A DNA stretch of 64,000 nucleotides, taken from Thermodesulfobacteriota bacterium. Lineage in GTDB: Bacteria > Desulfobacterota > Desulfobacteria > Desulfobacterales > Desulfosudaceae. Position numbers and translations under genes: made by a program. The stretch is taken from assembly GCA_040753795.1 (NCBI GenBank), contig JBFMDX010000010.1, positions 1-64,000 of the forward strand, in the 5' to 3' direction. Numbering within the stretch: position 1 is the first letter of the stretch; each line of letters starts with the position of its first letter. The notes below the pieces were generated by a model. The model was given only the letters and a program-made list of their open reading frames with translations, was not told where the DNA came from and did not search any database. Of the stretch, positions 1 through 21,195 are shown one piece after another.

Positions 1-1747
1 CCCGCAGCGCTTCCTGAAAACAGGCCGCGGCCCGATTATAATCCCTCTGGCGCTCGTAAACCAGTCCCAGATTGTTCAGCGACTCGGCGGCCTCCATGCT
101 GTCCGCTCCGGCCCCTGAAATCCTCATCGCCAACGCCTGGCGGGCATGGGACAGGGCCAGGTCCACCTCGCCGGTCCGCAGATAAGCGACGCCCAGGTTG
201 TTGTGAATTTCGGCGGTGTCCAGTCCTTCAGCCGCGAAGCTTTCCGTCTGAATCTGTAAGGCCGTCCGCAGGCAGGTGATGGCTTCCTGATAAGCCCCTG
301 TTTCCAGCAGCGCCGCGCCGAGGCTGTTGTTGATCTGGGCGATTGCCGGGGAACCCTTTTTCAACCGGCGGCCGGCCAGGTCCAGACTTTTGCGAAACCA
401 TGGGATGGCCTGGGGGTAATCACCGGAGCGTTCCAGCGCCAGGCCGAGGTTATGACAGGCCCGGGAATTTCCCGGCGCTTTTTTGACACCGTCCTGCCAG
501 AGAGCGATAGGGGTCAGCCACACGCCATTCCGCTGCCAGGCCCACAGGCCGCAGAGGCAGATCGCCGCCGTCAGGACAAAAGCGCCGGCTCTGGCGGGCC
601 GGAGATGACCGGCTGCCGACGCGACAACGGCCATGACCGGAAAGACCGACGGCAGGTAGGTGCGGTGCTCGAAGATGAGGGGCAGGCCGATGAATGAGGA
701 CTCGATGGCCAGGTTGCCCAGAAACCAGAAAATGGCGAACGACGGCAGCGGGTGTTCACGGGCCGCGGCTATTGCCAGGACGATCAGTCCGGCCAGGGCC
801 GTCAGGGCCGCTATCGTGGGGAACGGGTCCGTCAGCGACAGGGACAGGGGAAAGTCGTAATCCACGGTCAGTCGGTCCGGATGGGGGTAGAACAGCAATG
901 ACACAAAGTAGATGACCACCCGCGGCTGGGTCAGCAGCCGCTGGCCGGGGGTAAACGGTTTGTCCCGGTACGTCTCGGCTATCCGTTCCAGGGGGTGGCC
1001 GCCCAGGCAGACGACGGCAAGCAATCCGCATAGAATCGGGATCACTATCAGCCAGGGAAACCGTTTTTTCAACCAGGCGGCCTCCCGATTCTGGAAGAAA
1101 TACCATTCATACAGAAAGAGGAATATCGGCAGGGTGACGATCGTTTCCCTGGCGGTCAGACCGACCAACCCGCACAGGGCGCATCCGGAAAACAGCAGGA
1201 CCCTTTTCCCCTTGCCGGAGGTTTCATTCTGCCTGATCCGTCCCTGAATATAGCAGATCAGTGCCAGCAGGTAGAACATCGTGGCCAGCAGGTTCATGCG
1301 TTTGACGATATAGGTGACGGATTGAATGTGCGGCGGCAGCGCCAGCCAGAGGAGGCAGGCCAGAAGCGGTGTCGATTGTGTGCGCTGATGCATTCTGCCC
1401 AGGGTAAGCCCTGTCAGATAATATACCAGCAGCGCGTTGGCAATGTGGAGGGCAAGATTGACGAGGCGGTAACCGGTGACGTCCAAGCGGTGCACGGTGT
1501 AGTTCAGGAGAAACGTCAGCTTGGCCAGGGGGCGGCGGGCGGAAGGTTCTTCGAATAAATTGGTCAACGCCTGCCAGGTAATGTCGGTGACCATGATCTG
1601 GGGGTTGTCGACGATAATACCGTCGTCGTCAAACACGAACGGGGCTGACAAGGTGTGGCCATAGATCGCCAGGGCGACCAGAGCCACAATCCCCGCCACG
1701 GTCAGCGGGTGATGGAAAAGGGTCGAAGGGGGAGAATGATTATTCAT
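1..1747 (-). CDS. TMTC-like GT-C membrane protein with TPR tail (3' end outside window)
   Basis: This gene was read by hand because it runs off the left edge, so at least 582 codons are visible. It starts at ATG 1747 and overlaps the stop of the gene upstream by 8 bp. The N-terminus is a membrane segment followed by the acidic loop FVFDDDGIIVDNPQ, as expected for the first external loop of GT-C glycosyltransferases. The signature SVTYIVKRMN and a loop reading EHRTYLPSVFP follow, then about 10 membrane segments. From about residue 410 there are TPR repeats, for example NNLGLVYERQRDYNRA. It is the third of three tandem paralogues. The family resembles eukaryotic TMTC proteins (DUF1736 plus TPR), which are linked to O-mannosylation. 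A glycosyltransferase role is inferred and the substrate is unknown. Confidence 0.8.
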   Translation of the reverse strand, partial: MNNHSPPSTLFHHPLTVAGIVALVALAIYGHTLSAPFVFDDDGIIVDNPQIMVTDITWQALTNLFEEPSARRPLAKLTFLLNYTVHRLDVTGYRLVNLALHIANALLVYYLTGLTLGRMHQRTQSTPLLACLLWLALPPHIQSVTYIVKRMNLLATMFYLLALICYIQGRIRQNETSGKGKRVLLFSGCALCGLVGLTARETIVTLPIFLFLYEWYFFQNREAAWLKKRFPWLIVIPILCGLLAVVCLGGHPLERIAETYRDKPFTPGQRLLTQPRVVIYFVSLLFYPHPDRLTVDYDFPLSLSLTDPFPTIAALTALAGLIVLAIAAAREHPLPSFAIFWFLGNLAIESSFIGLPLIFEHRTYLPSVFPVMAVVASAAGHLRPARAGAFVLTAAICLCGLWAWQRNGVWLTPIALWQDGVKKAPGNSRACHNLGLALERSGDYPQAIPWFRKSLDLAGRRLKKGSPAIAQINNSLGAALLETGAYQEAITCLRTALQIQTESFAAEGLDTAEIHNNLGVAYLRTGEVDLALSHARQALAMRISGAGADSMEAAESLNNLGLVYERQRDYNRAAACFQEALR

Positions 1748-3908
1748 CGGCCTTGTTACCGGATCTGGTCGTGAGCGCTTTCAACTGCTGCCTGGCTTCG
1801 GCATGCTCCGGGTGGTCGGCGAGGATTTTACAATACTGGGCAACGGCCTCGTCCGTCAGGTCCTGCCGGGCCAGAGCTGCTGCCAGGGCCATTCGCAATT
1901 CGGGAAAATCGGGCCCCAGGGCCAGGGCCTTTTCCAGGTGCGTGCGCGTGTCCTGGTATTTTTCCTGCCGCAGCAGAAAAAGGCCGAGCTCGGCGCGGGC
2001 GGCCGGAGCGTCCGGCGCCAGAAAGACCGCCCGGAAAAGGTGAAATACCGCCATTACGGGGTCGCCCAGCCTGTCGCAGGCGATGCCGATATTGATGTTG
2101 ACTTCCGCCAGGTCGGGCGACAGCTCCAGGGCTTTTTTTAAGTGGGGCAGGGCTTTGCCGGCATCGCCGGCCCCCAGGAAGATGGCGCCCAGATTGTTTT
2201 CGGCGGCGGCGTTTTCCGGGTCCAGCTCCAGGGCCCGGCGGCAGTGGCGGATGGCCGGCTCCACCTGACCGGTCTGATAATAGGCCCTGCCCAGGGCGTT
2301 ATGCGCGTCGGAATCGTTCGGGGAAAGGCGAACGGCGGTTTCTAGCAGCGGCAAGGCTTCCACCGGGTTTCCTTTTTCGGTCGCGATGATACCCAGATTC
2401 GTGAACGCGCCGGCGAAACCCGGCTGCAATGCGATGGCCTGCCGGAATTCGTCTTCCGCCGCCTCCATATCTCCGGATTGATAGGAGAGCAGCCCCCGGT
2501 TGTAGTGAACCGGCCCTTTTTCGCCATGGGGGAGAACCAGGGCTTTTTCATACTCGGTCCTGGCCTTTTCCACCTCCCCGGCTTCGGCCAGGGCCAGTCC
2601 GTAGTCATTCCGGGGGGCGACCAGCCGCGGCGACTTCATGCAGCCGTCGCGCCAGAAAGAGACCCGGTCCTGCCAGGTGATGTTCCGCTGATACGTCCAG
2701 TACCCGTTGGCAATAATGAGTCCACCGGCCAGAATGATCGCCACCCCTCTGGATCGCAAGAGCCGGATCAGTAGAGCGGCCGCGGCCATGGCCGGGAAGA
2801 TTGAGGGAAGATATAGACGGTGTTCGAAAGCCATGGCCAGACCGATCAGCGAAGATTCGACCGCCAGGGTCCCCAGATACCAGAAAACGGCAAACGACAA
2901 CAGTCGCTGTCGCCGGGCCGTTTTTACGGCCAGGACGACCAGGGCCGCCAGGGCCGCCAGCGCGAGCGCGGTTGTCATCGGGTCGGTGACAGCACGGGAG
3001 AGGGGAAAATCATAGTTCAGGGTCAGCCGGTCCGGATGGGGATAGAACAGCAAGGACAGATAGTAGACCAGAACCGACGGCTGGGTCAGCAGGCGCTGTC
3101 CGGGGGTGAACGGTTTGCCGTGATAGGTGTCCGCTATCCGCTCCAGGGGGTGGCCGCCCAGGTAGAGACCGGCGAAAAGAACGCACAGCAGGATCGCCAG
3201 AAGCGGTCTCCGCCAATGCCGTCGCAGCCAGCCGCTGTCCAGATTCCGGAAAAAAAACCATTCATACAGGAAAATAAATGCCGGCAGGGTGGCGACAATC
3301 TGCTTGGACACCAGACCCGCCAGCCCGGCCAGGCAGCAGCCGGAAAGCCACAGGGCGATGACGCCTTTGCCGGCACCCCGCTCCTGGCGGGTTCGGGCCC
3401 GGACATAGCAGATCATGGCCAGGAGATAGAACAGGACGGCCAGGGCGTTCATGCGCTGGACAATATAGGTTACGGACTGGGTATGCGCGGGCTGGACCAG
3501 CCAGAGCAGGCCGGTCAGAAGGGACGGAAAAAAAGGCTTTCTTCCTGTCAGGCGAAAGGTCTGCCAGGCCAGGCAGAACACCAGCCAGCCGTTCACTACA
3601 TGGATGAGAAGATTGGTCAGGTGGTAACCGCTTTCCCGATATTGATGCAGGTAGTAATTGGCGGCAAAAGTCATTACCGGCAGAATCCTGTCGGCGGGAT
3701 TGTGTTTTATCGCATCAGCGATTTGCCCTTTTGTCAGCCGGGTCAGACGGATATGGGGATTCTCGCGGATCAGGGAAAGGTCGTCGCAATAAAACGGCGC
3801 CGGCAGCGAATTGCCGTAGATCAGCGCGCCGATGGCGTAAATCATCAGAAAAACGGCCGGAGCCGCTTTCCGGAAAACCATGGCGCTGTCGGAATGACCG
3901 GGGGTCAT
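1740..3908 (-). CDS. TMTC-like GT-C membrane protein with TPR tail
   Basis: The 722-residue protein has an N-terminal membrane half (about residues 1-400) and a TPR half. The first external loop carries FYCDDLSLIRENPHIR, with the paired aspartates typical of GT-C enzymes. Family blocks shared with both neighbours are HTQSVTYIVQRMN, GQRLLTQP, HPDRLTLNYDFPLS and FEHRLYLPSIFP. About eight TPRs fill residues 430-715. The start ATG overlaps the stop of the upstream paralogue by 4 bp (ATGA), so the genes are probably translationally coupled. The likely site of action is the outer face of the cytoplasmic membrane, with a lipid-linked sugar donor. That role is inferred from the fold, and neither donor nor acceptor is evident. 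Confidence 0.85.
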   Translation of the reverse strand: MTPGHSDSAMVFRKAAPAVFLMIYAIGALIYGNSLPAPFYCDDLSLIRENPHIRLTRLTKGQIADAIKHNPADRILPVMTFAANYYLHQYRESGYHLTNLLIHVVNGWLVFCLAWQTFRLTGRKPFFPSLLTGLLWLVQPAHTQSVTYIVQRMNALAVLFYLLAMICYVRARTRQERGAGKGVIALWLSGCCLAGLAGLVSKQIVATLPAFIFLYEWFFFRNLDSGWLRRHWRRPLLAILLCVLFAGLYLGGHPLERIADTYHGKPFTPGQRLLTQPSVLVYYLSLLFYPHPDRLTLNYDFPLSRAVTDPMTTALALAALAALVVLAVKTARRQRLLSFAVFWYLGTLAVESSLIGLAMAFEHRLYLPSIFPAMAAAALLIRLLRSRGVAIILAGGLIIANGYWTYQRNITWQDRVSFWRDGCMKSPRLVAPRNDYGLALAEAGEVEKARTEYEKALVLPHGEKGPVHYNRGLLSYQSGDMEAAEDEFRQAIALQPGFAGAFTNLGIIATEKGNPVEALPLLETAVRLSPNDSDAHNALGRAYYQTGQVEPAIRHCRRALELDPENAAAENNLGAIFLGAGDAGKALPHLKKALELSPDLAEVNINIGIACDRLGDPVMAVFHLFRAVFLAPDAPAARAELGLFLLRQEKYQDTRTHLEKALALGPDFPELRMALAAALARQDLTDEAVAQYCKILADHPEHAEARQQLKALTTRSGNKADE

Positions 3909-6334
3909 GGGGTGTCTTTCAGGTGATTCATCATCTGTTGAAAGCGGGGCGTGTCGCGGATCGATTCCAGATCCGGATCGGTCCGTAACGCCTCAATGTC
4001 ATGATATCCTTTTTCCATCGCTTTTTCCAGCTGCCCCAGGGCGTTGTCGGTCTGGTTCTGCCGGGCATACAGGCAGGCCAGATTGAATGACACCGTCGCT
4101 GACCCGGGCAGCAGCTTTTCCAGTTTTTCCAGTACCCCGGCGGCTTCGCCGTATGCCTGGCTGCCGGCCAGGACCACCGCCAGCTGGTTGAGCAGGTCCG
4201 GAGCCTCGGGAGCGACCGACAAGGCCCGGCGGTAATAGTAGGCGGCCTCGTTCCATTGCCGCTTTTTTTCGCTGATCAGGGCCAGTTTCGCCAGAACAGC
4301 GGGATCGTCCGGTGACAGATCCAGGGCCCGGGTCAGCTCCGTCCGGGCCTCGTCCAGGCGGTTGGCGGCCAGCAGCGCCGATCCCAGTTCGGCCCGGGCC
4401 CGGGCCAGTTTCGGCGTGGCTTCCGCGGCCCGGGTGAGAAAGGCGACGGCCTCTTCCGGCCGGTTCAGCGTGTTTAAGGCGATGCCGGCGTTTAAATTGG
4501 CCTGGGGGTGGAACGGGAACCGGTCGAGTACCCGCTTCAGGTGAAACAGCCCCTGGTGCGGATCTCCTCCATGCTGCAGCAGGGCGCCCAGCATCACTTC
4601 GGCGTCGGCGTTATCGGGATCCACCGCCAGGGCCCGGCTGCAGATCTCCATGGCCCGGCCGATGTCTCCGTCTTTCTGGTAACCGGCCCGGGCCAGCAGG
4701 GGATAGGCGGGTGTCAGCCAGGGGGACAGCCGGACCGAGGTTTCCAGGTGGGTGACGGCCTCGTCCAGACGATTTGCCGTCAGCAGGGCCCGGCCCAGGT
4801 TCATGTGCGCTTCCGCCAGGTTCGGATTGATCTGGACGGCCCGCTGGCCGAAGTCGATGGCCTTTTCGGTGTCGCCCAGGTCATCATACATTCTGGAAAT
4901 ATTATTGTACGCGTCGGCCGTATTGACTTTGGGCGGGGAAAGGGCGATGGACTGCCGGCAGGCGGCAATCCCTTCCTCATTCCGGCGCTGTTTGCCCAGG
5001 GCCATGCCCAGGTTGTTGTAAGCGATAAAGCTGGCGGGCGACTTTTGAATGGCGTCCTGCCAGAGACGGACTTCGTCGGCCCAGATCCCGTTCCGCTGCC
5101 GGGTCCAGAATCCGCAAACGGCGATCAGCAGAACGATCGTTGTCATGGCCAGCCGACGGGGGGCGATGCGTTGCAGGAGAACGCAGGCCATGGCCATGAA
5201 CGGAAAAACCGAGGGAAGATAGGTGCGATGTTCGACCAGCATGGCCAGGCCGATGATGGACGATTCCACCGCCAGGGCCCCCAGGAACCACAAGATAGCG
5301 AAGGAAAACAGGCGGCTGCGTCTGGCTTTCCGGACGGCGGTGATAACGGTCAGCAGCAGCAGAGCCAGCGCGGGCAGGGTGGTGGCGGGACGGGTCAGGG
5401 ACGTGGAAACCGTCACCCAGTGATCGACAGTCAATCGTTCCGGCAGGGGCAGCAGCAGCAGGGAAATATAATGGATGATCACCCGGGGCTGGGTCAGCAG
5501 GCGCTCCCCCATGGTAAAGGGCTTTTTTTCATAGGTGGCCAGAATAGCCGTAACGGGGTCGCCTTTGAGATAGATGAAGACCAGGACGGTGAGGATGGCC
5601 GCCATGGCAAACAGGGTTGTCGCCTGCCTGCGGATGAAGCCGGTTTCAAGATCGCGGATAAAAAACCATTCATAGAGAAAAATCATCAGCGGCAGGGTGA
5701 TGGCGCTCTCCTTGGAAGCCAGGGCGCATATTCCCGACAGCCCGCTGCCGATCAGCCACGGGGCCGCGGCGGTCCGCCGGCGCCCGGCTTCGGGTGGAAC
5801 CGTTCTGGCCCGGATGTACATGGCCAGGGCGGCGAGGTAGAACAGGGCGGACAGGGAGGTCATCCGCTGAACAATATAGGTGACCGACTGGGTGTGAACC
5901 GGGTTGACCAGCCACAGGGCGGCGGTCAGGAAGGGTGCCGCCGGAATCTCTTTTTTCAGCAAGGCCAGGGTCTGCCGGGTCAGAAGGTAGACCAGCAGCC
6001 CATTAATCACATGAATCAGCCAGTTGACCGCATGATAGCCGGCGACCTGATAGCCGTGAAAATAATAATTCAGGGCGAAGGATAACACGGGGATCGGCCG
6101 GGTAATGGAACGGCTCCGGATAATATCAGCCAGGGAGGACGGGGACAGGTCCCGTACCCGGATATGGGGATTCTTCGGGATGTTCAGGTTGTCGTCAAAA
6201 ACAAAGGGGGCCCGGAGGGTATTGCCGTAAACGGCCAGGCACAATAGACCCAGGGCCATAAAAACGACCGGTATCCGCCACCGCTCTTTCCCGGGCGCCA
6301 GAGGATCGATGCTCGCGTGCATGCAAGAGGACAT
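3905..6334 (-). CDS. TMTC-like GT-C membrane protein with long TPR tail
   Basis: This 809-residue protein is the first gene of a three-gene minus-strand operon. A single N-terminal segment (about 20-40) precedes the loop APFVFDDNLNIPKNPHIR, followed by SVTYIVQRM, SKESAITLPLMIFLYEWFF, GERLLTQPRV and VEHRTYLPSVFPF, all shared with the two downstream paralogues. Residues from about 450 to 780 are TPRs. The C-terminal segment EKGYHDIEALRTDPDLESI resembles a motif often found at the end of bacterial TPR proteins. The start is uncertain: ATG 6334 is fused to a CACTTAA repeat array and has no Shine-Dalgarno sequence. ATG 6322 is an alternative. The enzymatic role is inferred from the family. Confidence 0.82.
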   Translation of the reverse strand: MSSCMHASIDPLAPGKERWRIPVVFMALGLLCLAVYGNTLRAPFVFDDNLNIPKNPHIRVRDLSPSSLADIIRSRSITRPIPVLSFALNYYFHGYQVAGYHAVNWLIHVINGLLVYLLTRQTLALLKKEIPAAPFLTAALWLVNPVHTQSVTYIVQRMTSLSALFYLAALAMYIRARTVPPEAGRRRTAAAPWLIGSGLSGICALASKESAITLPLMIFLYEWFFIRDLETGFIRRQATTLFAMAAILTVLVFIYLKGDPVTAILATYEKKPFTMGERLLTQPRVIIHYISLLLLPLPERLTVDHWVTVSTSLTRPATTLPALALLLLTVITAVRKARRSRLFSFAILWFLGALAVESSIIGLAMLVEHRTYLPSVFPFMAMACVLLQRIAPRRLAMTTIVLLIAVCGFWTRQRNGIWADEVRLWQDAIQKSPASFIAYNNLGMALGKQRRNEEGIAACRQSIALSPPKVNTADAYNNISRMYDDLGDTEKAIDFGQRAVQINPNLAEAHMNLGRALLTANRLDEAVTHLETSVRLSPWLTPAYPLLARAGYQKDGDIGRAMEICSRALAVDPDNADAEVMLGALLQHGGDPHQGLFHLKRVLDRFPFHPQANLNAGIALNTLNRPEEAVAFLTRAAEATPKLARARAELGSALLAANRLDEARTELTRALDLSPDDPAVLAKLALISEKKRQWNEAAYYYRRALSVAPEAPDLLNQLAVVLAGSQAYGEAAGVLEKLEKLLPGSATVSFNLACLYARQNQTDNALGQLEKAMEKGYHDIEALRTDPDLESIRDTPRFQQMMNHLKDTP

Positions 6335-6370
6335 TAAGTGTTAAGTGATTAAGTGGTTAAGTGTTAAGTG
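6334..6370. repeat. Heptamer array TTAAGTG (5 copies)
   Basis: Five copies of TTAAGTG lie at 6334, 6341, 6349, 6357 and 6364. Two adjoin directly and the others are separated by a single base. On the minus strand the array reads CACTTAA and runs straight into the start codon of the 809-residue TPR protein. Related arrays lie at 41137-41171 and 46552-46853. The function is unknown. Confidence 0.8.
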
Positions 6371-6482
6371 GCTACGGGGTATACATCGCATAAGTGTCAG
6401 GTGAATTCAAGAATCTTCAAAAGCGCCCGGCGGTCGTTATGGATGACGCGGCGCGGGGGCGATGATACGCCGAAATTTATCC

Positions 6483-6511
6483 TTGACATTTTTTCGCAAT
6501 TCGGCAACCAT
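6483..6511 (+). promoter_or_regulatory. Weak candidate sigma-70 promoter for the secreted-protein pair
   Basis: A perfect -35 box, TTGACA (6483-6488), is followed after 17 bp by AACCAT, a poor -10 box. Slightly longer spacings give ACCATA or CATAAC. It lies 45-75 bp upstream of the possible starts of the first secreted protein. Only the -35 half is convincing. Confidence 0.3.
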
Positions 6512-6555
6512 AACACATAAACACTGTTCGCGGATACAAATTCAGGTGCTTGATT

Positions 6556-7728
6556 ATGATCGATCACGCTGTACGATGGGGGGGGATGACCCATCCCGGA
6601 TTCAAGTTTCGTCTAAAGATATTTTTTAGGATTATCCTTCTCCTCCTGGCGGCCTTCCTGCCGTTGCCTGGTATCGCCGGCATGGACGTTATGACCAACC
6701 ATGAAATGGGTGAGCTGGAAGGCGGCAAAATGTGTGAACTGGCCATCAGCGACCCGAACTACTATTCTTCCACCACCCCTGTTACCGTGGTCCGGTTTGC
6801 CAGCGATATCTACCTGGAAGCATACGGAGAAGTCGGTTCGCTTAAAATGGGAGACTACCCCCGCTCGGTGGCCGAACTGGGGGACATGGCCTCCATGGAC
6901 TCCAACTACACCATGGTTTACGGCCCGCAAGACCGGTCCAATCCGAGGGGCGGGGGGGCTCAGGTAAATGCAAGCTACATGGGGACCGGCGGGGATAATC
7001 CCTATATGACCAATACCAACCGGACCGACCGGATTCATGATCGTTACATGGGCACCGGCTCCAGCACCCTCGACCTGGGCACATCCGCCTATCAGCAGTC
7101 CGCCAACGCGCCGTGGGATAACTTCGGGTCCTATCTGGCCACCAATTATCCTGAAACTCAATGGGACATCAACTGGGAGGCCATGAAAACCGGGCTTTCC
7201 GCCGAATACCCCCTGCGCATTTACGGTCTGGTGTTAAGGGCGGAGTTTGATCACTGGGGCACCTCTCTCCAGCAGTTGCGGCGATTCGTGATCGGCTCCA
7301 ATAACCTCTATGGCTATGCCTCGGCCCGGCCCCTGGTGAGCAGCGGCTGGCTGAATGCCGAAATGGCCCGGCTCAATAACGCCGTCATGCCGCTGGTGCG
7401 CCAGACCTGTTTTCAGGTCCAGCGGGATCCGATCATGGATCAGTACTGGTCCCTGTCCAGTTTTTATTTCAATCCCGACAACACCGGGGCCCATGGCTCC
7501 TTCCGCCAGTTCTGGTTTAATACCTGCATGAACGACGTGACCATCACCCCGGGCATTGCCAACCAGGTCGGCCGGTATCAGGATAAAAATCACGGGTTTT
7601 TCCTTATGGTCGACATGACCGACAAGCGGTTTTCCGGATGGAATTTAATCGGCGGCGTCAATGAATACCGGGACTGGCCGCCCCTGGAGCAGGATGACTC
7701 CCACTATTTTGAAAACGAGTACCGATAA
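6556..7728 (+). CDS. Unknown secreted protein with conserved post-signal motif
   Basis: I do not recognise this family. The predicted 390-residue product has a hydrophobic signal segment (IFFRIILLLLAAFLPLPGIAG). The mature part begins MDVMTNHEMGELEGG, which matches the start of the next gene product (pattern M-x-x-[ML]-[ST]-x-x-[DE]-M-G-x-[LV]-x-G). The rest is rich in aromatic, Asn, Gly and Met residues with few charged stretches, like an exported beta-rich surface protein. Starts are possible at TTG 6550, ATG 6556 and ATG 6586, and none has a clean Shine-Dalgarno. It forms an operon with the gene at 7760 (31-bp gap) and lies between two groups of GT-C/TPR proteins. It could be a substrate of that machinery, which is speculative. 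Confidence 0.65.
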   Translation: MIDHAVRWGGMTHPGFKFRLKIFFRIILLLLAAFLPLPGIAGMDVMTNHEMGELEGGKMCELAISDPNYYSSTTPVTVVRFASDIYLEAYGEVGSLKMGDYPRSVAELGDMASMDSNYTMVYGPQDRSNPRGGGAQVNASYMGTGGDNPYMTNTNRTDRIHDRYMGTGSSTLDLGTSAYQQSANAPWDNFGSYLATNYPETQWDINWEAMKTGLSAEYPLRIYGLVLRAEFDHWGTSLQQLRRFVIGSNNLYGYASARPLVSSGWLNAEMARLNNAVMPLVRQTCFQVQRDPIMDQYWSLSSFYFNPDNTGAHGSFRQFWFNTCMNDVTITPGIANQVGRYQDKNHGFFLMVDMTDKRFSGWNLIGGVNEYRDWPPLEQDDSHYFENEYR

Positions 7729-7759
7729 ATCATCAAGATTATTGATTCGGGATGAAGGT

Positions 7760-9457
7760 ATGAAAAACAGCATTTATCGCGCAGTCGTGCTGGGGATTCT
7801 GCTGATGGCGGTTGGCTTGACGGGCGTCGATCGGGTGGCGGCCATGCAGGCCCTGTCTACTACCGACATGGGCGGGGTCACGGGCATGGCGGGTCTGACC
7901 ATCTATTTCAAAGATCTGGACGCCACCCTGATCCAGTTGGACGACTACATGCTGGATTTGAGCCCCAGCGACACCACCGACTGCTCGTTCCGGATTCGCG
8001 ATGATAACAACAGAACGTCCATGCCCCTTCCACCGGCCGGTTTAGACGGTAACAACATTGCCATGTCTTTTTGCGGGAGCCCCACCGACGAGAGCGTGCC
8101 GATCAATGTGGACTTTCTGGGGCTTGAAATCGATATCGGCTACGGGCGCTGCGCTGGTGAGACGATACTGGACGCCGACGCCATAACTTTTTCCCTGACC
8201 GGATACGGCAGTACCGAAATGTACAACGTCTGGGACCTGGCCCAGTTCGATCCCCCCACAGCCGCTCCGTTTGACGTGTTCGGTCTGACCCTGGGGGAAA
8301 TCTTCTGGGCGGAAAAATATATCGACCCGGAGAAGCACCTGTTCATGCATATCCTGCTCTCCCCGCTTTCATCTTATGCTGACGCCGGTTTTGTCGATTC
8401 CAACGAAGGCGCCTGGCAGGTTCCGATCGGTACCGGCCTGACCAAGGCCCAGATCCGGGACAACACTGGCGTGGGCGGTGAACTGGGCCTGAAACCGGGC
8501 GGCGGCACCTTCGGGTTCACGGGATTTAAAAAGTCCACCGGCAGCCCGCAGCGAGCCACGATCAGCAGTGTCATGCTGGCCGGAAAAATTATCGATCAGG
8601 GGACAACGGCCGCTGGCCCTTATGCCTCAGCCGATACCGATCAGTATCCCAACTGGAAATCGATTAACCGGAATTATTATTACCAGGACAGCCTCAACAA
8701 CTGGAATATCATGGGCGAAGCGGTCATCGGGGTCCACCATTACCGTACCTATAACAGAACCAACTATATTGGAAAGTATGCCAGCGGCGCCAATTTTGAC
8801 ATGTCGACCTTTGCCGATAACGTCATCGGCGCCACCAGCCCCACCCGGCCCCTCCGTTTCCAGGTGGCCACGGCCGACGCCGGTTATGACTGCGACGGTG
8901 ACGGTCTGCGGGATACCTACCTGATCTCTTATATGAACGGCCACTATTCCCGGACGGTTTACTTTCCGGACAGTGCCGTCTCCTCCATGGGGGCGTCGCC
9001 ATCAACTTCCCCCACCAGCACCGTCCCCCGGAAAAAGGAGTATATCCTCGGCGATATGCGGATCGGTTTTTCTGAGGAAAGGTACCCTTCCCGAGACTGG
9101 AGCAACGGCGTTTTTACCACCCTGATCATCAACGGCAGCGAGATCCGCCACGGCGGCTCCTGGGTGGTCAATGACATATCCCTGGAATACAACAAGGTGG
9201 TTATCCCCGGGGACCGGAACCTCGTCCAGGAAACATCCGCCGCCAGCGAGGATTACATCATTCCGGACCGGGATTACGGCAACGACGGCACCAACAACGT
9301 CAATCAGCTCGTGTTCCTCGGCGACCCCACCTCCTCTGCCCGTACCATGGAGATTGCCAATCCCTGCGACGGTGATGCCGGCGGTAATTATGGCTTGCCG
9401 ATGAATGAGGGCGATACGGCAGCGGACCTTTCCCGTCCCAGTACCTGGTGGCGATAG
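7760..9457 (+). CDS. Unknown secreted protein with DUF6160-like N-terminal motif
   Basis: The product is 565 residues. I chose ATG 7760 because it places a standard signal peptide at the N-terminus (MKNSIYRAVVLGILLMAVGL, cleavage near RVAA). The mature start, MQALSTTDMGGVTGMAGLTI, resembles the 'L-S-x-x-x-L-x-x-V-x-G-x-x-G-[IL]-x-I' start of DUF6160/FilF-type exported proteins. A DxDxDGxxD calcium-loop-like stretch, DCDGDGLRD, occurs about two thirds of the way along. The protein is rich in Gly, Asn, Tyr and Thr, which suggests a beta-rich surface or fibre protein. It is co-transcribed with the preceding gene, with which it shares the post-signal motif. The function is unknown. Confidence 0.65.
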   Translation: MKNSIYRAVVLGILLMAVGLTGVDRVAAMQALSTTDMGGVTGMAGLTIYFKDLDATLIQLDDYMLDLSPSDTTDCSFRIRDDNNRTSMPLPPAGLDGNNIAMSFCGSPTDESVPINVDFLGLEIDIGYGRCAGETILDADAITFSLTGYGSTEMYNVWDLAQFDPPTAAPFDVFGLTLGEIFWAEKYIDPEKHLFMHILLSPLSSYADAGFVDSNEGAWQVPIGTGLTKAQIRDNTGVGGELGLKPGGGTFGFTGFKKSTGSPQRATISSVMLAGKIIDQGTTAAGPYASADTDQYPNWKSINRNYYYQDSLNNWNIMGEAVIGVHHYRTYNRTNYIGKYASGANFDMSTFADNVIGATSPTRPLRFQVATADAGYDCDGDGLRDTYLISYMNGHYSRTVYFPDSAVSSMGASPSTSPTSTVPRKKEYILGDMRIGFSEERYPSRDWSNGVFTTLIINGSEIRHGGSWVVNDISLEYNKVVIPGDRNLVQETSAASEDYIIPDRDYGNDGTNNVNQLVFLGDPTSSARTMEIANPCDGDAGGNYGLPMNEGDTAADLSRPSTWWR

Positions 9458-9582
9458 GCCCCTTTTCCCATCCGTAAAGTTTCGAGAAGCCGACACTCCC
9501 GGTTCCATTTTTTTCGGAGGGGGGACCGAGGTCATCCTGTTTTGTGCTTTTTCCCTCTTCCGATATCTGATATTCTTCCGTC

Positions 9583-11124
9583 ATGATGCGATACCTGTGG
9601 ACAGGCCTCTGCCTGACGGCGCTGATTGCCGTCGTCTACCTTCAGACCGGTCGGTTTGAGTTCCTCGGGTTTGATGATCCCCAGCTGGTTACGGAAAACA
9701 GCCATGTCCGCCGGGGAGTGACCATGGAAAGCGTCAAATGGGCGTTTTTTTCTTCCTGGCGGGAAAATGTCTTCTATTATCCGCTTTCTCTGGTTTCCCA
9801 TATGGCGGACGTGAGCGGGTTCGGCCTGGATTCCGGCCGTCACCACCTGACCAACGTCGCTGTCCACGCGGCCGCGGTACTGGCCTTGTTCGCGCTGCTG
9901 GCGCGGCTCTCGGGGGGGATATGGCGGGCCGGACTGGCCGCCGGTTTGTTTGCCGTCCATCCCCTGGGCGTGGATTCGGTGGCCTGGGTGACGGAACGGT
10001 CCAATCTGCTCTGTGCCCTGCTGACGGTGGCCGCCATGGGCGCTTACGCGCAATACCGGACGAGCCGGCGGAAACGCTGGTACGGCTTCAGCCTGGGGCT
10101 GTTTTTCCTGGCCCTGCTGGCCAAGCCCACGGCGGTCATGGCGCCGGTGGTAATGTGGCTGATCGGTCGTCTTGATTTTGATTCCGGTCCGGTGGCCGGC
10201 GCCCCCCGACTACCGGTCGTCAGGGACCTGCTGCCGTTTGCCGTCCTGGCGGCGCTCCGGATCATGGCGGTTCTGGCGGCGGAACGCGGGGCCAGCCCGG
10301 CGGTATCGGACGGGGTCATGACGACCGGGATGCTGGCCGCCAACGCCCTGACAGCCATGACCGCTTATCTGATCAAAGCGGTTTTTCCTTTCCGGCTGTC
10401 CGTATACTATCCCTTTCCCCAGACCCTGCCCCTGTGGCAGCCGCTGGTTTCCGGTCTGGTGATGACGCTGGTCACGGCCATGATCCTGAAGGCCGGCCGC
10501 CGGCGGCCCATGGTTTTACTGGGGTGGGTATGGTTTCTGGCTTTCCTGGCGCCGTCATTCGGCGCGGTGAGGTCCGGTCCCTGGCCGGCCATGGCCGATC
10601 ATTACGTCTACATTCCCCTGATGGGGCTGTTTACCGCCCTGGTCTGGCTGGCGCCCGCGCCCGGCGGTTCACGCCGGCGAAGGACGGCGGCCGGGGCCAT
10701 TGCTTGTTCTCTGGTGGCGTATTTCGCGGCCGTCTCGTATGTCCACGCCGGGCATTACCGGAACAGCGTCACCCTCTTTACCCGGGCCCTGGAACTGGAC
10801 TCAAAGAATTTTCTGGCCCGGATCGGCCTGGGTAACGCCTTTCGCCGGCAGGGGGCGATGGCCGCGGCCGAGGAGCATTTCCGGGCGGCTGTCGCCATCC
10901 GGCCAGAATCTCCCGGGGCGCATAACAACCTGGGGCTGGTGCTGGCGGAACGGGGAGGCTGGAAGGAAGCGGAACAGCACTTTCTCATGGCCCTGGCCCT
11001 GGATCCGGGGTTTGCCATGGCGCGTGACAATTTAATCAACTTAGAGCGGAAGCGGGCGGCGGCGCCGGACGCAGGGGGTGATTCCCCGGGCCGGGCGGCC
11101 AGTGAACCGCCAAGAGAAGAATGA
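9583..11124 (+). CDS. GT-C-like membrane protein with short TPR tail
   Basis: The 513-residue protein is related to the three TPR membrane proteins at the left of the window. The first loop reads FEFLGFDDPQLVTENSHVR, and HPLGVDSVAWVTERSNLLCAL corresponds to HTQSVTYIVQRMN in the paralogues. The block MADHYVYIPLMGLF matches the EHRxYLPS loop. About nine membrane segments are followed by two or three TPRs (residues about 410-490). ATG 9583 and ATG 9586 are both possible, and neither has an obvious ribosome binding site. It ends 10 bp before the next gene, so the two probably form an operon. A glycosyltransferase role is inferred. Confidence 0.78.
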   Translation: MMRYLWTGLCLTALIAVVYLQTGRFEFLGFDDPQLVTENSHVRRGVTMESVKWAFFSSWRENVFYYPLSLVSHMADVSGFGLDSGRHHLTNVAVHAAAVLALFALLARLSGGIWRAGLAAGLFAVHPLGVDSVAWVTERSNLLCALLTVAAMGAYAQYRTSRRKRWYGFSLGLFFLALLAKPTAVMAPVVMWLIGRLDFDSGPVAGAPRLPVVRDLLPFAVLAALRIMAVLAAERGASPAVSDGVMTTGMLAANALTAMTAYLIKAVFPFRLSVYYPFPQTLPLWQPLVSGLVMTLVTAMILKAGRRRPMVLLGWVWFLAFLAPSFGAVRSGPWPAMADHYVYIPLMGLFTALVWLAPAPGGSRRRRTAAGAIACSLVAYFAAVSYVHAGHYRNSVTLFTRALELDSKNFLARIGLGNAFRRQGAMAAAEEHFRAAVAIRPESPGAHNNLGLVLAERGGWKEAEQHFLMALALDPGFAMARDNLINLERKRAAAPDAGGDSPGRAASEPPREE

Positions 11125-11134
11125 AGCGGCAAAA

Positions 11135-13633
11135 ATGAGTCTGACTCCGAAACTCCGGCGAAGTCTCGCGGTTTGGCTGCTGCTGGCAGCCGTCATGGCC
11201 GCCGCCTCGTTCCATCGGGTGGGCCGGTATAAGGACCGGCCCCTGTATGATCCCCGTTCGGATGCCGGTTTTTTCTACACCGAGGAGGCCTTCCAGTACC
11301 GGTATGCCCGGATGACGGCCGGCGGCGAAGCCATCCCCTGTTTTGATAAAAAGGCCCAGTGGCCCGAAGGCGTCCGCCCTTTCCGGGACCTGACCCTTTT
11401 TCAGGAATATCTTCACGGAACGGCCTTCCGCCTTTTTTCGGTTTTTGTCAAAACAGTTCCCCTGCACGTATTCCTGATCTACTTTGTATCGTTTTTTTCC
11501 TCCCTGGCCGTTTTGGCGCTGTTTTCGAGTGCCCGCGCTTTGGGCGCGGACCGGGGCACGGCCCTGCTCTGTTCCGCCCTGTACGCGTTTACCGGGGCGG
11601 CCTTTGCCCGGTTGCAGTTTTACGAACTGGAAAATACGGCCTTCCCCCTCATGGCCCTTTCTTTTGCTGCCTTCCTGCGGGCCATACGCGGCCGCGGACA
11701 GGCCATGACCACCGCGGTTATTTCCGGCGGCCTGATGGCGCTGGCACTGATCACCTGGCATTTTACCCGGTTTTATCTGCTGATTTTCTGGGCGGCCATG
11801 GCCGCGGCCTTTTTGCTGCGCGGCGGCAACCGGAAGCACCTGGCCGCGGCCGCCATCCTGCTGGTTTCAGCCGCGCTGACGGGGTTGCTGTCGCCGGTCA
11901 TGAGAAGCGGCGGTCTGATCGGCTCCCCGACCATGCTGGCCGCCGTTCTGGTGGTGACCGGTCTGCATTTGAATGACCGCCATGGGCTGAATGCGCTTTC
12001 CCGGCTGGTTCTGATGCTGATCGGCGGGTTTATTATCCTCATCGTTCTTTCCTTCGGGAACGAAACATACGCCTACGGCCATGTCTGGGATCTGTTAAAA
12101 TACAAATTGTTTCATGCGCTGGTCAAACCGGCCGATTCGTCGCAACTGCCGTTTGCCGGCCGTCTCCTCTGGAACGGGCCGTTTGACACCCCTTCGCCCG
12201 GGTATCTGATTTACCGCTACGGCCTGTTGCTGCCCCTGGCCCTGGCTGCTCTTTTCCGGTTTGTCCGGCAGCGGCGGGGCACCGCCGGATTCGCGGACAT
12301 GCTCACCGTTGCCATGACGGTGCTGTTTGCAGCGGCCAATATCATGGTGGAACGGTTGACCATCTTCGGCGCTTTCTTCCTGGGACTGTCCGTTGTTTAT
12401 CTCTTTCCCCCGGCAACGGTCAAGGCCGCGTCGGCCGAGGCCGGGGTCTCCCCCGCCGGTTCCGGCCCCGGCCGGTTCCGGCTGTCCCATTTTTTTCTGG
12501 CGGCGTGCCTGATCATTCAGGCGCGGGAAGCGGTGCTGTGCGACCGGGCGTTTCTGGCCGAAGCGGTTCGGCGGCTGTTCCCGGACCGCTCCCCGGTCCC
12601 GCTTCTCCCGTACACGTCCGATGAGATGGACATGCTGGCCTGGATCCGTGACAACACGCCCGAAGAGGCCGTGTTCCTGTCCAACCAGGGGAACAGCCCT
12701 TCCATTTTGACCTACACCGGCCGGGCCATTAACCTTCACCCCAAACTGGAGACCGAGGGCCTTCGGAAAAAATATGAAACCGCGCTGTTTGCCCTTTTCG
12801 GAGAGGATGAAGAAGCGCTGTACCGTTTGCTGGACGCGATGGAAACCGATTATTATCTTTATCCCGCCAACAATCTGCTGTATGCCGGTCCGGACAGCGA
12901 GCGGTATATGGCCGGTCGCTCCCGGATATCGCGGGAAAATCTCACCTGGCGGCTGCATTTTGATCCCGGCGGCTTCCGGCGTCTGCGGCTGGTTTACCGG
13001 AACCGGAGCTATCAGATCTACCGGGTTCTGGACGCCGGGGCCGGCGCGCCGGCGGTCAATTATGTTCCGCCTTATTTCCCGGTATTTGATCCGGATCTGT
13101 TTGGCGCCCGCGGATCCGGACCGGCGGATGGTTTCGACGATGCCCTGGCCCATTCGGTTCTGGAGCGGGTGGATTATGCCGCCCGAATGATGGCGCAGGC
13201 CGGATCATGGCTGTCCCGGGGCAACCGCCGCCAGACGCAGGCATTGATTCAGCAGGCCCTGGCCATGGGCCTGCCCGACGGCCGTATCTGTTTTCTGGCC
13301 GCCGAATACATGACGCAAATGGAGAATGTCGATCAGGCTTTTTTCTATATCCGTCAGGCGCTGACCTATGACCCGGAAAATATGGCAGTCAAAAAGCTGC
13401 TGGCCAGGATTTATCTGCTTCGGGATGAACCGGACCGGGCCCGGTCCGTGCTGGCTGAGATCATCCGTCAGGATCCGGCTGACGCGGCGTCCCATAACGA
13501 TATGGGCCTGATCCTGTGGCGGAAAAAGGAATTCGCGGCCGCCCGGGACTGTTTTTTGCGGGCGCTTAGTCTGAATCCGGAATTTGAGCAGGCCCGCCGC
13601 CATCTGGAGATACTGAACGGAAATTTTCAGTAA
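11135..13633 (+). CDS. STT3-like GT-C membrane protein with C-terminal TPRs
   Basis: The 832-residue product starts at ATG 11135, which gives a 10-bp gap to the upstream stop. The upstream frame would extend 47 bp into that gene. The external loop EEAFQYRYARMTAGGEAIPC followed by QWPEG resembles the oligosaccharyltransferase STT3/PglB/AglB layout. After about 11 membrane segments a soluble domain begins (DEMDMLAWIRDNTPEEAVFL), like the 'aW...NTP' start of the STT3 periplasmic domain. I did not find a WWD-type motif, so oligosaccharyltransferase activity is unproven. Three TPRs end the protein (about 740-825). It converges with the radical SAM gene at 13653. Confidence 0.72.
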   Translation: MSLTPKLRRSLAVWLLLAAVMAAASFHRVGRYKDRPLYDPRSDAGFFYTEEAFQYRYARMTAGGEAIPCFDKKAQWPEGVRPFRDLTLFQEYLHGTAFRLFSVFVKTVPLHVFLIYFVSFFSSLAVLALFSSARALGADRGTALLCSALYAFTGAAFARLQFYELENTAFPLMALSFAAFLRAIRGRGQAMTTAVISGGLMALALITWHFTRFYLLIFWAAMAAAFLLRGGNRKHLAAAAILLVSAALTGLLSPVMRSGGLIGSPTMLAAVLVVTGLHLNDRHGLNALSRLVLMLIGGFIILIVLSFGNETYAYGHVWDLLKYKLFHALVKPADSSQLPFAGRLLWNGPFDTPSPGYLIYRYGLLLPLALAALFRFVRQRRGTAGFADMLTVAMTVLFAAANIMVERLTIFGAFFLGLSVVYLFPPATVKAASAEAGVSPAGSGPGRFRLSHFFLAACLIIQAREAVLCDRAFLAEAVRRLFPDRSPVPLLPYTSDEMDMLAWIRDNTPEEAVFLSNQGNSPSILTYTGRAINLHPKLETEGLRKKYETALFALFGEDEEALYRLLDAMETDYYLYPANNLLYAGPDSERYMAGRSRISRENLTWRLHFDPGGFRRLRLVYRNRSYQIYRVLDAGAGAPAVNYVPPYFPVFDPDLFGARGSGPADGFDDALAHSVLERVDYAARMMAQAGSWLSRGNRRQTQALIQQALAMGLPDGRICFLAAEYMTQMENVDQAFFYIRQALTYDPENMAVKKLLARIYLLRDEPDRARSVLAEIIRQDPADAASHNDMGLILWRKKEFAAARDCFLRALSLNPEFEQARRHLEILNGNFQ

Positions 13634-13652
13634 TGATGAAATCCGACGCGGT

Positions 13653-15158
13653 TTAAAAAGAGCGACGCCTGAACTTTTCGATGATTTCCGTCAGCACCCG
13701 TTCCGTTTTTGTCTCCTGCCGTCCCCGCATCAGGTTGCTTATCATTCGCGGAAGCCGGGAGGGGTGACGGAACAGAGAGATGGCATGAAACTGGATCAGC
13801 CCCGTCCATTTTAGCAGCAGCAACCGGTTTTTTCCCAGCAGCGGATTCCATGACGCGGACGGAACCAGGGCGGTGGCGTCCGCCGTCTGGTAGCAGAAGT
13901 CGTCGTCGACCGGCACCGGCCGGATGGCGGAAGCGTCGGCAAAGGCCCGTGTCCCCGGCAGCAGGACGAAAGAGGAAATGGCGATTTCGTCAACGTCCCG
14001 TTGGGCCAGCCAGCGGATCAGCCGGTAAGTCCGGCGGATGTCTTTTATCGTTTCCGTGGGATAGCCGATGACAAACAGGGCGCTGACGATCATTCCCGCT
14101 TTTTTGGCGGCCACAACGGCCTGGCGGAAGCGGTCCAGGTCCAGGTGCTTGTTCATGGCCGCCAGCACGGCCGGGCTGCCGCTTTCCGGGGCGAACTGGA
14201 TATGGCGGCATCCGGAGCGGAGCATCATTTCCGCCATGTCATCATCCATGACTTCCGGCCGGCCGCCCACCGGCATCTGCCAGCGGATCCCGGGATGACG
14301 CGCCAGAATCGTCCGACACAGGTCCCGGATCCACTCCCGGCTGATCAGGGGGCTGATGTCCAGAAACTGGAATTCGGTGATATGTTCTATTGATACGTAT
14401 GCGGACATTTCGCGCACGATTGCTTCCGGCCTCCGTTTTCTCCAGACGCCTTTCCACATGGCCGGCGCCGAGCAGAAAACGCAACCGTGGGGGCAGCCCC
14501 GGGAGGCCAGCATAGTCATGGTCCGGGCCTGGGCCGGTCCAACATACAATTTGTAAGCCTTCCAGGGAATAAGGTCCCAGGCCGGAAAGGGCAGGGAATC
14601 CAGTTCGGCTATGGGCGGGCGATCGACGGTTTGATGAATTTCTCCGGTGTCCGGATCTTTCCAGGCGATTCCGGCGATGGCTGCAAGCGGCCGGCCGGTT
14701 TCCAGGGCGTCGGCAATTTCCACCAGGGTCTCTTCCCCTTCTCCCAGAACGCAGGCGTCCAGCGGCGCCTGACGGAGACAAAGATCAAACAGGGCGGTGG
14801 GGTGCTCGCCGCCGGCGATGACCGGCACATCGGGAAGAACTTTTCTGATTTGCCGGACCAGATCCCTGACCAGGGGCCAGGTATGGGAAAACATGCAGGA
14901 CACGCCGATCAGATCGCTCTTGGGATCGATCCGGCGGAGAATGTCCTCCGTCGCCAGCCCCTGCCGCAGGAACCGCCTGGATAAGGGGTATGGCACAAAC
15001 CGGTCAATGGCTTCCCCCACAGCGTCGATCACGTCGACGGTGTGTCCGTGGCGCCGCAGGAAGGCGGCCAGATAGGCCAGCCCCAGGGGAGGGTGGCAGA
15101 AGGCGGAATAATGGAACCGTCCCGGCAGGGCCGGCGGATTGATCAGGGTGACGCGCAT
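13653..15158 (-). CDS. B12-binding-domain radical SAM protein
   Basis: The 501-residue protein starts at ATG 15158, since MRVTLINPP is the usual family start, and overlaps the GT2 gene stop by 16 bp. The N-terminal cobalamin-binding-like domain includes HPPLGLAYLAAFLRRHGH and VPVIAGGEHPTAL. The radical SAM core has the iron-sulfur motif CPHGCVFC (C-x3-C-x2-C) near residue 225, followed by FAPESGSPAVL and GYPTETI. The DxHxxG cobalamin-ligand motif is not visible, as in many members of this group. Family members methylate or rearrange lipids, antibiotics and tetrapyrroles, and the substrate here is unknown. It is downstream of and overlapping a polyprenyl-phosphate-sugar-synthase-like GT2. Confidence 0.85.
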   Translation of the reverse strand: MRVTLINPPALPGRFHYSAFCHPPLGLAYLAAFLRRHGHTVDVIDAVGEAIDRFVPYPLSRRFLRQGLATEDILRRIDPKSDLIGVSCMFSHTWPLVRDLVRQIRKVLPDVPVIAGGEHPTALFDLCLRQAPLDACVLGEGEETLVEIADALETGRPLAAIAGIAWKDPDTGEIHQTVDRPPIAELDSLPFPAWDLIPWKAYKLYVGPAQARTMTMLASRGCPHGCVFCSAPAMWKGVWRKRRPEAIVREMSAYVSIEHITEFQFLDISPLISREWIRDLCRTILARHPGIRWQMPVGGRPEVMDDDMAEMMLRSGCRHIQFAPESGSPAVLAAMNKHLDLDRFRQAVVAAKKAGMIVSALFVIGYPTETIKDIRRTYRLIRWLAQRDVDEIAISSFVLLPGTRAFADASAIRPVPVDDDFCYQTADATALVPSASWNPLLGKNRLLLLKWTGLIQFHAISLFRHPSRLPRMISNLMRGRQETKTERVLTEIIEKFRRRSF

Positions 15159-15928
15159 CCCCGCCCCTTCGGGATATGCCGGATCAGCCGGAGGGCCAGC
15201 CAGACGTAGCGGCAATTGATGTAAAAATTGTTTTTGCTGACCCCTTCCTCTCTTCCTTTCCAGACCGTGGGAACCTGGCGGATGGAGGCGTTTTCCAGCA
15301 GAGGCTTCAGGGTCGTTTCAATGAAAATCTCATGGAGGGTCCCTTCCCAGGGGATGGCCTCGACCAGCGATTTCTGTAAAATTTTGAAACCGTAAGTCAG
15401 GTCGCCGATATCGGTGGCGTAAATCCGCTTGAAAATCTGCTGAAACAGCCAGTTGAGCCACAGTTTCACCGGATGGTAGTGGGTGAACCCGCCGCCTTCC
15501 ATCCAGCGGCTGGCAACCACCGCCTGGCAACCGGTCCGTTGGATTTCCCTCACCATGCGGTCCACGGCTTCGGGCTCGGTCTCCAGGTCCGCGGACATGA
15601 TGGCCACATAGTCTCCGGTGGCGGCCGCCATTCCCTCCCGGACCGCCCGGCCCACGCCCGGATTCTCCTGGAAGCGGGATATCACCCGCGGGTCCTCCGC
15701 TGACAGGGCCCGGCAGATATCCAGGCACCGGCGGGTGGAACGGGGGCACACCACCAGGATGATTTCGTGGATGTATCCCCGGTCATTGGCCTTCAGCCGT
15801 TCGATGGTCTGCTTCAGGGACCCTTCCTCCGAATAGACGGTGATCACGACGGTTAACCGGATCCGCGGATGGATATCATTCATGGCGATGGCCGCCGTGC
15901 CTGCGATTGTGAATTTATCATTGGACAT
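15143..15928 (-). CDS. GT2 glycosyltransferase, polyprenyl-phosphate-sugar synthase type
   Basis: This is a GT-A fold family 2 glycosyltransferase of about 261 residues. RLTVVITVYSEEGSL is the nucleotide-binding start. ENPGVGRAVREGMAAATGDY and the metal-binding motif SADLETEP (DxE/DxD position) match dolichyl-phosphate glucose/mannose synthase relatives. Such enzymes move a sugar from a nucleotide sugar to polyprenyl phosphate on the cytoplasmic face, making donors for GT-C enzymes. No C-terminal membrane domain is present. A frame start exists at 15973, but the likely promoter (15945-15973) would put the transcript start near 15938, so I chose ATG 15928. ATG 15883 is equally plausible. Confidence 0.8.
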   Translation of the reverse strand: MSNDKFTIAGTAAIAMNDIHPRIRLTVVITVYSEEGSLKQTIERLKANDRGYIHEIILVVCPRSTRRCLDICRALSAEDPRVISRFQENPGVGRAVREGMAAATGDYVAIMSADLETEPEAVDRMVREIQRTGCQAVVASRWMEGGGFTHYHPVKLWLNWLFQQIFKRIYATDIGDLTYGFKILQKSLVEAIPWEGTLHEIFIETTLKPLLENASIRQVPTVWKGREEGVSKNNFYINCRYVWLALRLIRHIPKGRGCASP

Positions 15929-15944
15929 TCCGCAAAATAAAAAT

Positions 15945-15973
15945 ACTATATACAGGATAGGGGGTGATGGCAA
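15945..15973 (-). promoter_or_regulatory. Sigma-70-like promoter for GT2-radical SAM operon
   Basis: On the minus strand TTGCCA (15973-15968) is separated by 17 bp from TATAGT (15950-15945). Transcription would start near 15938, which excludes the frame-opening ATG at 15973 as the translation start. Confidence 0.55.
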
Positions 15974-16004
15974 TCGTTGTTTACCCGCTTTGACCGCATA
16001 TAAT

Positions 16005-18574: not shown

Positions 18575-18602
18575 GGCCGTCTTCCTCCGGCGATTATCTG
18601 TT

Positions 18603-19340: not shown

Positions 19341-19362
19341 GCGTCATTCTCTCTGTCAGTTC

Positions 19363-19381
19363 GCCGCCGAAGGCCGGCGGC
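19363..19381. promoter_or_regulatory. Leader hairpin upstream of FKBP gene
   Basis: GCCGCCG and CGGCGGC form a perfect 7-bp stem with a 5-nt loop, 22 bp upstream of the FKBP start. No T-tract follows it on the minus strand, so it is more likely a leader or mRNA-stability structure than a terminator. Confidence 0.45.
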
Positions 19382-19420
19382 AAGCGTGTTGTTTTGGATG
19401 CGCCCGGATAAACAGAAAAC

Positions 19421-19449
19421 TTTTTACAGCGGGACGGGGGGTTTGTCAA
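19421..19449 (-). promoter_or_regulatory. Sigma-70-like promoter for FKBP gene
   Basis: On the minus strand a perfect TTGACA (19449-19444) is followed after 17 bp by TAAAAA (19426-19421). It lies about 80 bp upstream of the FKBP start. Confidence 0.45.
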
Positions 19450-19592
19450 ACCGCTTTTTCATGTTGGTTTCACGCTGCCGTGTTTTCCGAAGTCTTTCCG
19501 GCGCGGGCAGCGGTAAAAAAGCGTGGACAATCGCGACGCTACAATAATATTATATACCGATTGCAAATCAAAGCACTCTCTCGGACAATATC

Positions 19593-21182: not shown

Positions 21183-21195
21183 CCCCTTGCCATCA

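Follow-up and report, generated by a model that had tools for sequence, protein, structure and literature searches.

The window analysed here opens contig C10 of genome G000 (4.75 Mb) and spans 64 kb. At its start, GT-C proteins with TPR tails surround two exported proteins, S1 and S2. The locus raises the question of whether these enzymes modify the exported pair, as the first-pass annotation had proposed in reading it as a dedicated glycosylation system with its substrates encoded in the middle.

Gene layout

All seven genes named in that annotation are present in the sequence (Table 1). Genes a, b and c are transcribed leftwards to the contig start, and S1, S2, d and the Dpy19-type gene rightwards. 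Genes a and b overlap by 8 bases and b and c by 4, so the three are coupled, and they are true paralogues (b against c, 43% identity over 699 aa, E = 4e-164), confirming the three tandem coupled GT-C/TPR paralogues described before. Two other calls needed adjusting: the supposed fourth paralogue at 9583 (d) is a GT-C/TPR gene that falls on a different tree branch from a, b and c, and the protein at 11135, called STT3-like with TPRs, is a GT-C/TPR protein whose family match is Pfam Dpy19 (E = 6.6e-20; 71.3 bits, cut-off 27.2). Start sites were re-examined by eye and with a script, and the Dpy19-type start stays at 11135. The S1 reading frame (6550–7728) has alternative ATG codons at 6556 or 6586, and for S2 the ATG at 7760 (565 aa), with a purine-rich stretch just upstream, is more likely than that at 7661. 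A search for related loci returned one, on a contig of G001 (a Desulfococcus MAG).

Table 1 Genes at the start of the window.
Feature	Position	Strand	Remarks
GT-C/TPR protein a, abc-type	2..1747	-	cut by window start, which is base 1 of contig C10; DD behind TM1
GT-C/TPR protein b, abc-type	1740..3908	-	DD behind TM1
GT-C/TPR protein c, abc-type	3905..6334	-	divergent from S1, 215 bp apart; DD behind TM1
S1, exported protein	6550..7728	+	leader-like motif MTNHEMGELEGG behind signal peptide
S2, exported FilA/DUF6160-type protein	7760..9457	+	leader-like motif LSTTDMGGVTGM behind signal peptide
GT-C/TPR protein d	9583..11124	+	125 bp behind S2; enzyme kept with the S1/S2 pair
Dpy19-type GT-C protein with TPR tail	11135..13633	+	Pfam Dpy19 match

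The block a-b-c-S1 occurs twice in the genome (window 1–7728 and contig C13, 1–7867) at about 89–91% protein identity, and both copies are cut by a contig end; the C13 copy of c (89%) is likewise divergent from an S1 copy. Downstream of the GT-C genes, the window carries GT2, B12-radical-SAM and RGP-like genes. The gene at 15840–17147, beside GT2 and B12-radical-SAM genes, matches the RGP family (reversibly glycosylated polypeptide; E = 1.8e-13), which is found mainly in plants, and at 13653–23720, next to the GT-C genes, are four radical-SAM proteins, of which three have B12-binding domains and one a SPASM domain.

Identity and spread of the exported proteins

The secreted pair had been described as being of unknown family. 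For S1, Pfam and NCBIfam give no match at E 1, and the N-terminus of S2 resembles the DUF6160/FilA type weakly (18.5 bits; cut-off 27). Both appear to be relatives of Fil/Fap-type exported proteins with a putative leader, which often occur with FilB/FapD-like C39 peptidases, FapF-like barrels and FilD, and the earlier description is replaced by this one. Close copies of S1 lie on contigs C8 (88%) and C13 (91%) of the same genome, relatives occur in two other genera of the family, and an S1 profile found the protein in 49/389 genomes of the order (26/150 genera). We mapped 67 S1 loci, not counting G304 (a contig-end fragment) and L197 (G243, no S1 call). A FilA-type protein lies within 3 kb at 48 of these, a count that excludes L050 (49/67 otherwise), where the apparent neighbour is a frame artefact of the false 5' extension of S2. 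A C39 peptidase lies within 9.5 kb at 29/67 loci, this distance being an upper reach, as many mapped stretches end at contig ends. S2 has no match in 57 relatives at E 0.001 and gives partial BLAST matches (25%) to the proteins at the corresponding position in G001 and G002; because its sequence is poorly conserved, its equivalence across genera rests on gene order and the leader. The predicted structure of S1 (AlphaFold2, two-row alignment) reached a pLDDT of 27, too low to be of use, and enrichment in Ser/Thr was not seen in S1 (0.142) or S2 (0.167), the class means being 0.154 and 0.161.

The spread of S1 includes several other settings. The third copy in this genome (L050:8660-15236, contig C8) has no real FilA and no GT-C neighbour, and follows exported proteins that by eye resemble an esterase, a lipase and a lipase helper. 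Around the short S1 relatives of family f60 (L168, L173, L184–L188, L191–L195), the stretch contains no gene assigned as FilA-type or C39, and several of these relatives lie next to either a 616-aa protein or one resembling an 11-TM transporter. Family f18 shows an expansion of its own (L152, L153, L155, L156, L159–L163, L165), which combines long S1 proteins with FilA-type proteins of 546–651 aa and has no C39 or GT-C gene assigned nearby.

The Fil/Fap core of the genome

A core of three FilA genes followed by FilB, FilC and FilD is encoded at 37–45 kb on contig C13 of the same genome. Its FilB is the genome's single FilB match and thus lies outside the window, and BLAST found no FilB, FilC or FilD in window positions 1–20000. 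This FilB matches the FilB model at 3.5e-59 (200 bits against a cut-off of 475) and the FapD model at 2.3e-36, and the C13 barrel matches FapF at 6.3e-20, the FapD and FapF matches both being below cut-off. Similarly, the proteins of the L060 operon match NCBIfam FilA, FilB, FilC, FilD, FapD and FapF, all below the curated cut-offs, as well as Pfam DUF6160, Peptidase_C39 and Toluene_X. FilB was found at E 1e-20 or better in 10/58 relatives and DUF6160 at E 0.05 in 10/58, with nine common to both; DUF6160 is above its cut-off in 7/58 genomes, this one included. G001, which is 87% complete, has no FilB match.

Across the order, the Fil operon is often accompanied by a TolB-like propeller protein (at least 22 cases, e.g., L198:8814-10532), which in L198 matches the TmcD family below cut-off (1.3e-39). 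On C13, the Fil operon is led into by an island of eleven GT-C/TPR genes (1166–36556; L048, L049), among which are genes resembling, by eye, those for sugar-nucleotide and GT2 enzymes.

A leader-like motif behind the signal peptide

The new and testable element is a candidate 12-residue motif placed directly after the predicted Sec signal of S1 and FilA-type proteins, with the outline [LM][ST]-D-x-E-[LM]-x-x-[VI]-T-[GA]-[Q/G]. Signal peptides were identified with a crude hydropathy rule, and the 154 of 158 S1/FilA-type members with one entered the counts. A matrix trained on FilA-type proteins found the motif in 59/62 S1 proteins, whose assignment came from a full-length profile that covers the N-terminus as well; a matrix trained on S1 found it in 88/92 FilA-type proteins, a class that is partly circular because it was assigned by BLAST to motif-bearing references. 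Shuffled stretches gave 0/62 and 3/92, and other signal-peptide proteins of the same loci 14/186 and 13/186, many of the positives resembling, by eye, unclassified FilA-type proteins. Among the FilB, FilC, FilD and propeller proteins in which this crude rule called a signal peptide, none has the motif (0/31, 0/28, 0/27 and 0/22; 0/108 in all), a count from a matrix trained on proteins that it scored, as opposed to the cross-trained S1 and FilA-type counts.

The motif has hydrophobic residues at -12, -7 and -4, often an acidic one at -8, and G or A at -2. Leaders cleaved by C39 peptidases are described with a hydrophobic -12/-7/-4 pattern (PMC10885120), and the consensus given for double-glycine leaders includes E(I/L)X2(I/V)XG(G/A) (PMC3140520). 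In the reading that we favour, the motif on the cargo would be a double-glycine-type leader read, and probably cut, by FilB. An alternative is that it forms the structural N-terminus of the mature proteins, used for assembly or barrel docking. Its last residues fit this idea, as the motif ends in GG in the window's S1, in GM in S2 and mostly in GQ or AQ in relatives, while canonical C39 sites are given as GG and sometimes GA in PMC5557850. The match of its hydrophobic spacing to the C39 leader pattern (PMC10885120) and the C39 peptidases near S1 loci counted above argue for a protease leader instead, and we regard the structural role as possible while leaning against it. Export of FapC in Pseudomonas depends on catalytically active FapD, the periplasmic C39 peptidase, whose target was reported as unclear (PMC5557850, PMC6173800). 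Our searches of open-access papers turned up none that joins this motif to FilB or FapD. A near-universal motif with C39-leader spacing on putative Fil-like cargo is a candidate signal for a FapD-type protease, and makes the question of the target directly testable.

Linkage of the exported pair to GT-C genes

The order S1-S2-d is kept in three genera of the family (the window, G001 and G002), with gaps of 125, 3 and 14 bp between S2 and d. In two genera of another family (G019 and G083), the order is FilA-S1-GT-C, with gaps of 80 and 128 bp between S1 and the GT-C gene and a second, convergent GT-C gene at each locus. Searched against 58 genomes, d finds its two best non-self matches in the linked genes of G002 (52%) and G001 (48%), the next being at 41%; the linked gene of G019 is only 33% identical to d, no closer than many unlinked ones. 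In a 91-row tree of GT-C domains, from which pieces below 250 aa and contained ones were left out, the five linked genes fall inside one 8-row set (support 98/94), whose other members are two second copies from those loci and a gene of G042, a genome without an S1 match. They are not one clade, requiring two label changes, and the 7-row subset is weak (90/58) in a tree whose bootstrap had not settled. In the S1 tree (66 of the 67 rows, one 82-aa S1 piece being left out), all 7 rows with a GT-C gene nearby, which include two near-copies in one genome and one locus (L143) with its GT-C gene on the opposite strand at a distance of 7.4 kb, belong to a single 23-row clade (95/96), against 0/43 elsewhere. 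The linkage label needs 5 changes on this tree, which 18/500 shuffles reached, and two S1 proteins of the long clade (G000:C8 and G019:C58) have no GT-C gene nearby.

The expectation that the secreted pair would always co-occur with GT-C/TPR genes did not hold. A GT-C gene lies within 9.5 kb at 7/67 mapped S1 loci, with none in the stretch read at the other 60, and genomes with 9–18 GT-C matches carry S1 without linkage. Of the proposed dedicated link, what stands is the conservation of the S1-S2-d and FilA-S1-GT-C orders, set against an S1 family that is mostly independent of GT-C genes. With GT-C genes as frequent as here (35 matches in 4.75 Mb), chance adjacency could account for some cases: for the 49 genomes, the expectation is at most 1.5 S1 loci having a GT-C gene within 9.5 kb (from 69 S1 places, as compared with 67 loci mapped). 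The 7 seen and the five co-directional GT-C genes within 2 kb downstream of S1, where 0.08 are expected (P about 0.003 when counted as two lineages), make chance very hard to credit as the explanation.

Alternatively, surface polysaccharide or lipid could be the substrate of the GT-C/TPR enzymes, and their proximity to Fil cargo could reflect no more than the gathering of surface genes in islands. The 35 GT-C/TPR matches in the genome, the continuation of the window into GT2, B12-radical-SAM and RGP-like genes, and control loci all speak for this. No S1, Fil or leader-motif neighbour was found at 20 GT-C loci of other genomes (four of these stretches being shorter than 6 kb) or at 21 further loci inspected as a subset of all matches in G000 (13), G001 (4) and G002 (4). 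The tight co-directional adjacency in two families, which involves one small GT-C set and is unseen at these 41 loci, argues for a closer connection with the cargo, and we rate the surface-island explanation as unlikely. The a-b-c triplet has its own link, to the second S1 copy and the Fil operon on C13, and in G000 and G002, abc-type GT-C genes stop about 0.5 kb short of a FilA-FilB-FilC-FilD operon.

The GT-C/TPR enzymes

All of a, b, c and d carry a C-terminal TPR array and a DD motif behind TM1, and D31/D32 are nearly invariant (at least 90%) among 16 GT-C rows, one of which is truncated there. Crude hydropathy gives the GT-C/TPR proteins 9–11 TM segments, compared with 11 in TMTC, where the TPRs lie outside. 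The domain tree splits into a d-type half and an abc-type half (c being represented by the copies L018_1498 and L048_1166), so that a, b and c are placed as a separate, locally expanded GT-C branch and d on the other. At least one GT-C/TPR match is present in 41/49 S1-bearing genomes.

The resemblance to TMTC enzymes suggested earlier extends to the DD in the first loop and the TPR tail and stops at DUF1736 (PF08409), which is matched at none of the listed GT-C genes: its sole match in the genome at E 10 is at E 1.7 (C1:239934), where no listed GT-C gene lies, and TMTC_DUF1736 is not among the families matched by the 16 GT-C rows. A GT-C profile found no match among PDB sequences at E 1. Structure prediction, which had been proposed as a check on the GT-C domains, was run on d, where the TPR part was confident and the rest was not (pLDDT 46). 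Prokaryote homologues of TMTC are mentioned in PMC7801869; our literature search found nothing on the role of TMTC-enzyme relatives in bacteria.

The GT-C/TPR enzymes probably attach sugars to proteins. Another way to explain the pairing is that d serves Fil cargo as a TPR chaperone or docking factor in the membrane, with transferase activity not being the link. This would agree with the TPR tails on all of a–d and with the Fap model, in which cargo is unfolded while in the periplasm (as outlined in PMC5557850). Retention of the first-loop DD, at the frequency given above, argues against this, and we consider a purely chaperoning d improbable.

Proposed mechanism

The reading that we favour, with about as much doubt as confidence, is that S1 and S2 are Sec-exported Fil/Fap-like cargo, that d is a dedicated modifier glycosylating them before export, and that the motif is a leader read by FilB. 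The sequences themselves show the gene order and its conservation, the motif with its rarity in controls, and a Fil core in the genome. Weighing against the reading are the 60 S1 loci with no GT-C gene in the stretch read, the ordinary Ser/Thr content of the cargo, the lack of a FilB match in G001 and the missing DUF1736 signature of TMTC. Sec would export S1 and S2 as cargo of a Fil/Fap-like secretion system, the putative core of which (the FilB C39 peptidase, the FapF-like barrel FilC, and FilD) is encoded on C13. In the periplasm, the TPR tail of d would hold unfolded S1 and S2, while its GT-C domain would move a sugar from a lipid-phosphate donor onto Ser/Thr of the cargo before export. 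FilB would then read, and probably cut, the motif right after the signal peptide, and the FapF-like FilC would carry S1 and S2 out. In kind, d would behave as a GT-C/TPR enzyme that glycosylates proteins and is paired with Fil/Fap-type cargo; the chemical steps are our inference.

The conserved pairing singles out specific proteins as candidate substrates of bacterial TMTC relatives, and if the favoured reading is true, surface fibres of Fil/Fap type can be glycosylated. A broader version, in which the locus represents a glycosylated branch of Fil/Fap-type secretion that combines periplasmic sugar-coating by GT-C/TPR enzymes with a Sec-exported double-glycine-type leader as the missing signal of the C39 peptidase, seems to us doubtful at present.

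Comparison with known systems

We did not file the system as TMTC, DPY19, Fil or Fap, because a defining feature of each failed or stayed below its cut-off. First, TMTC O-mannosyltransferases (GT105) likewise have a GT-C domain with DD in the first loop followed by a TPR tail, but the proteins described here are without a TMTC_DUF1736 match.

Second, the Dpy19-type protein resembles the DPY19 C-mannosyltransferases (GT98) in its Pfam match above cut-off, and a relative in G001 (contig C53; 25% over 564 aa) also matches Pfam Dpy19 (4.9e-08). phmmer returned mostly TPR proteins for the window's Dpy19-type protein, with the C-mannosyltransferase dpy-19 only at E 0.082. It differs in its TPR tail and in having neither ExE behind TM1 nor Rx6LRE, both of which are given as DPY19 motifs in PMC6801728, where C-mannosylation is described as confined to metazoa and alveolata. 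C-mannosylation of S1 and S2 was considered and dropped, as the window pair has no WxxW/C (the S1 proteins of G002, G019 and G083 have one each).

Third, the putative Fil pilus system (NCBIfam FilA–FilD) shares FilA-type exported proteins, a C39 FilB, FilC and FilD in one operon, as seen in relatives and on C13; here, however, the scores are far under the curated cut-offs, S1 and the GT-C/TPR genes are extra, and the window genes lie apart from the core. Fourth, the Fap functional amyloid system of Pseudomonas (FapA–F) likewise has a periplasmic C39 peptidase, and the C13 barrel is FapF-like, whereas Fap proteins are said to be without canonical C39 sequences (PMC5557850), as against the near-universal leader-like motif here; no likeness of the cargo to FapB, FapC or FapE was noticed. 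Finally, the motif shares its hydrophobic spacing, its frequent acidic residue at -8 and its G or A at -2 with double-glycine leader peptides, and differs from them in following a Sec signal, in belonging to proteins of about 150–650 aa and in ending mostly in Q.
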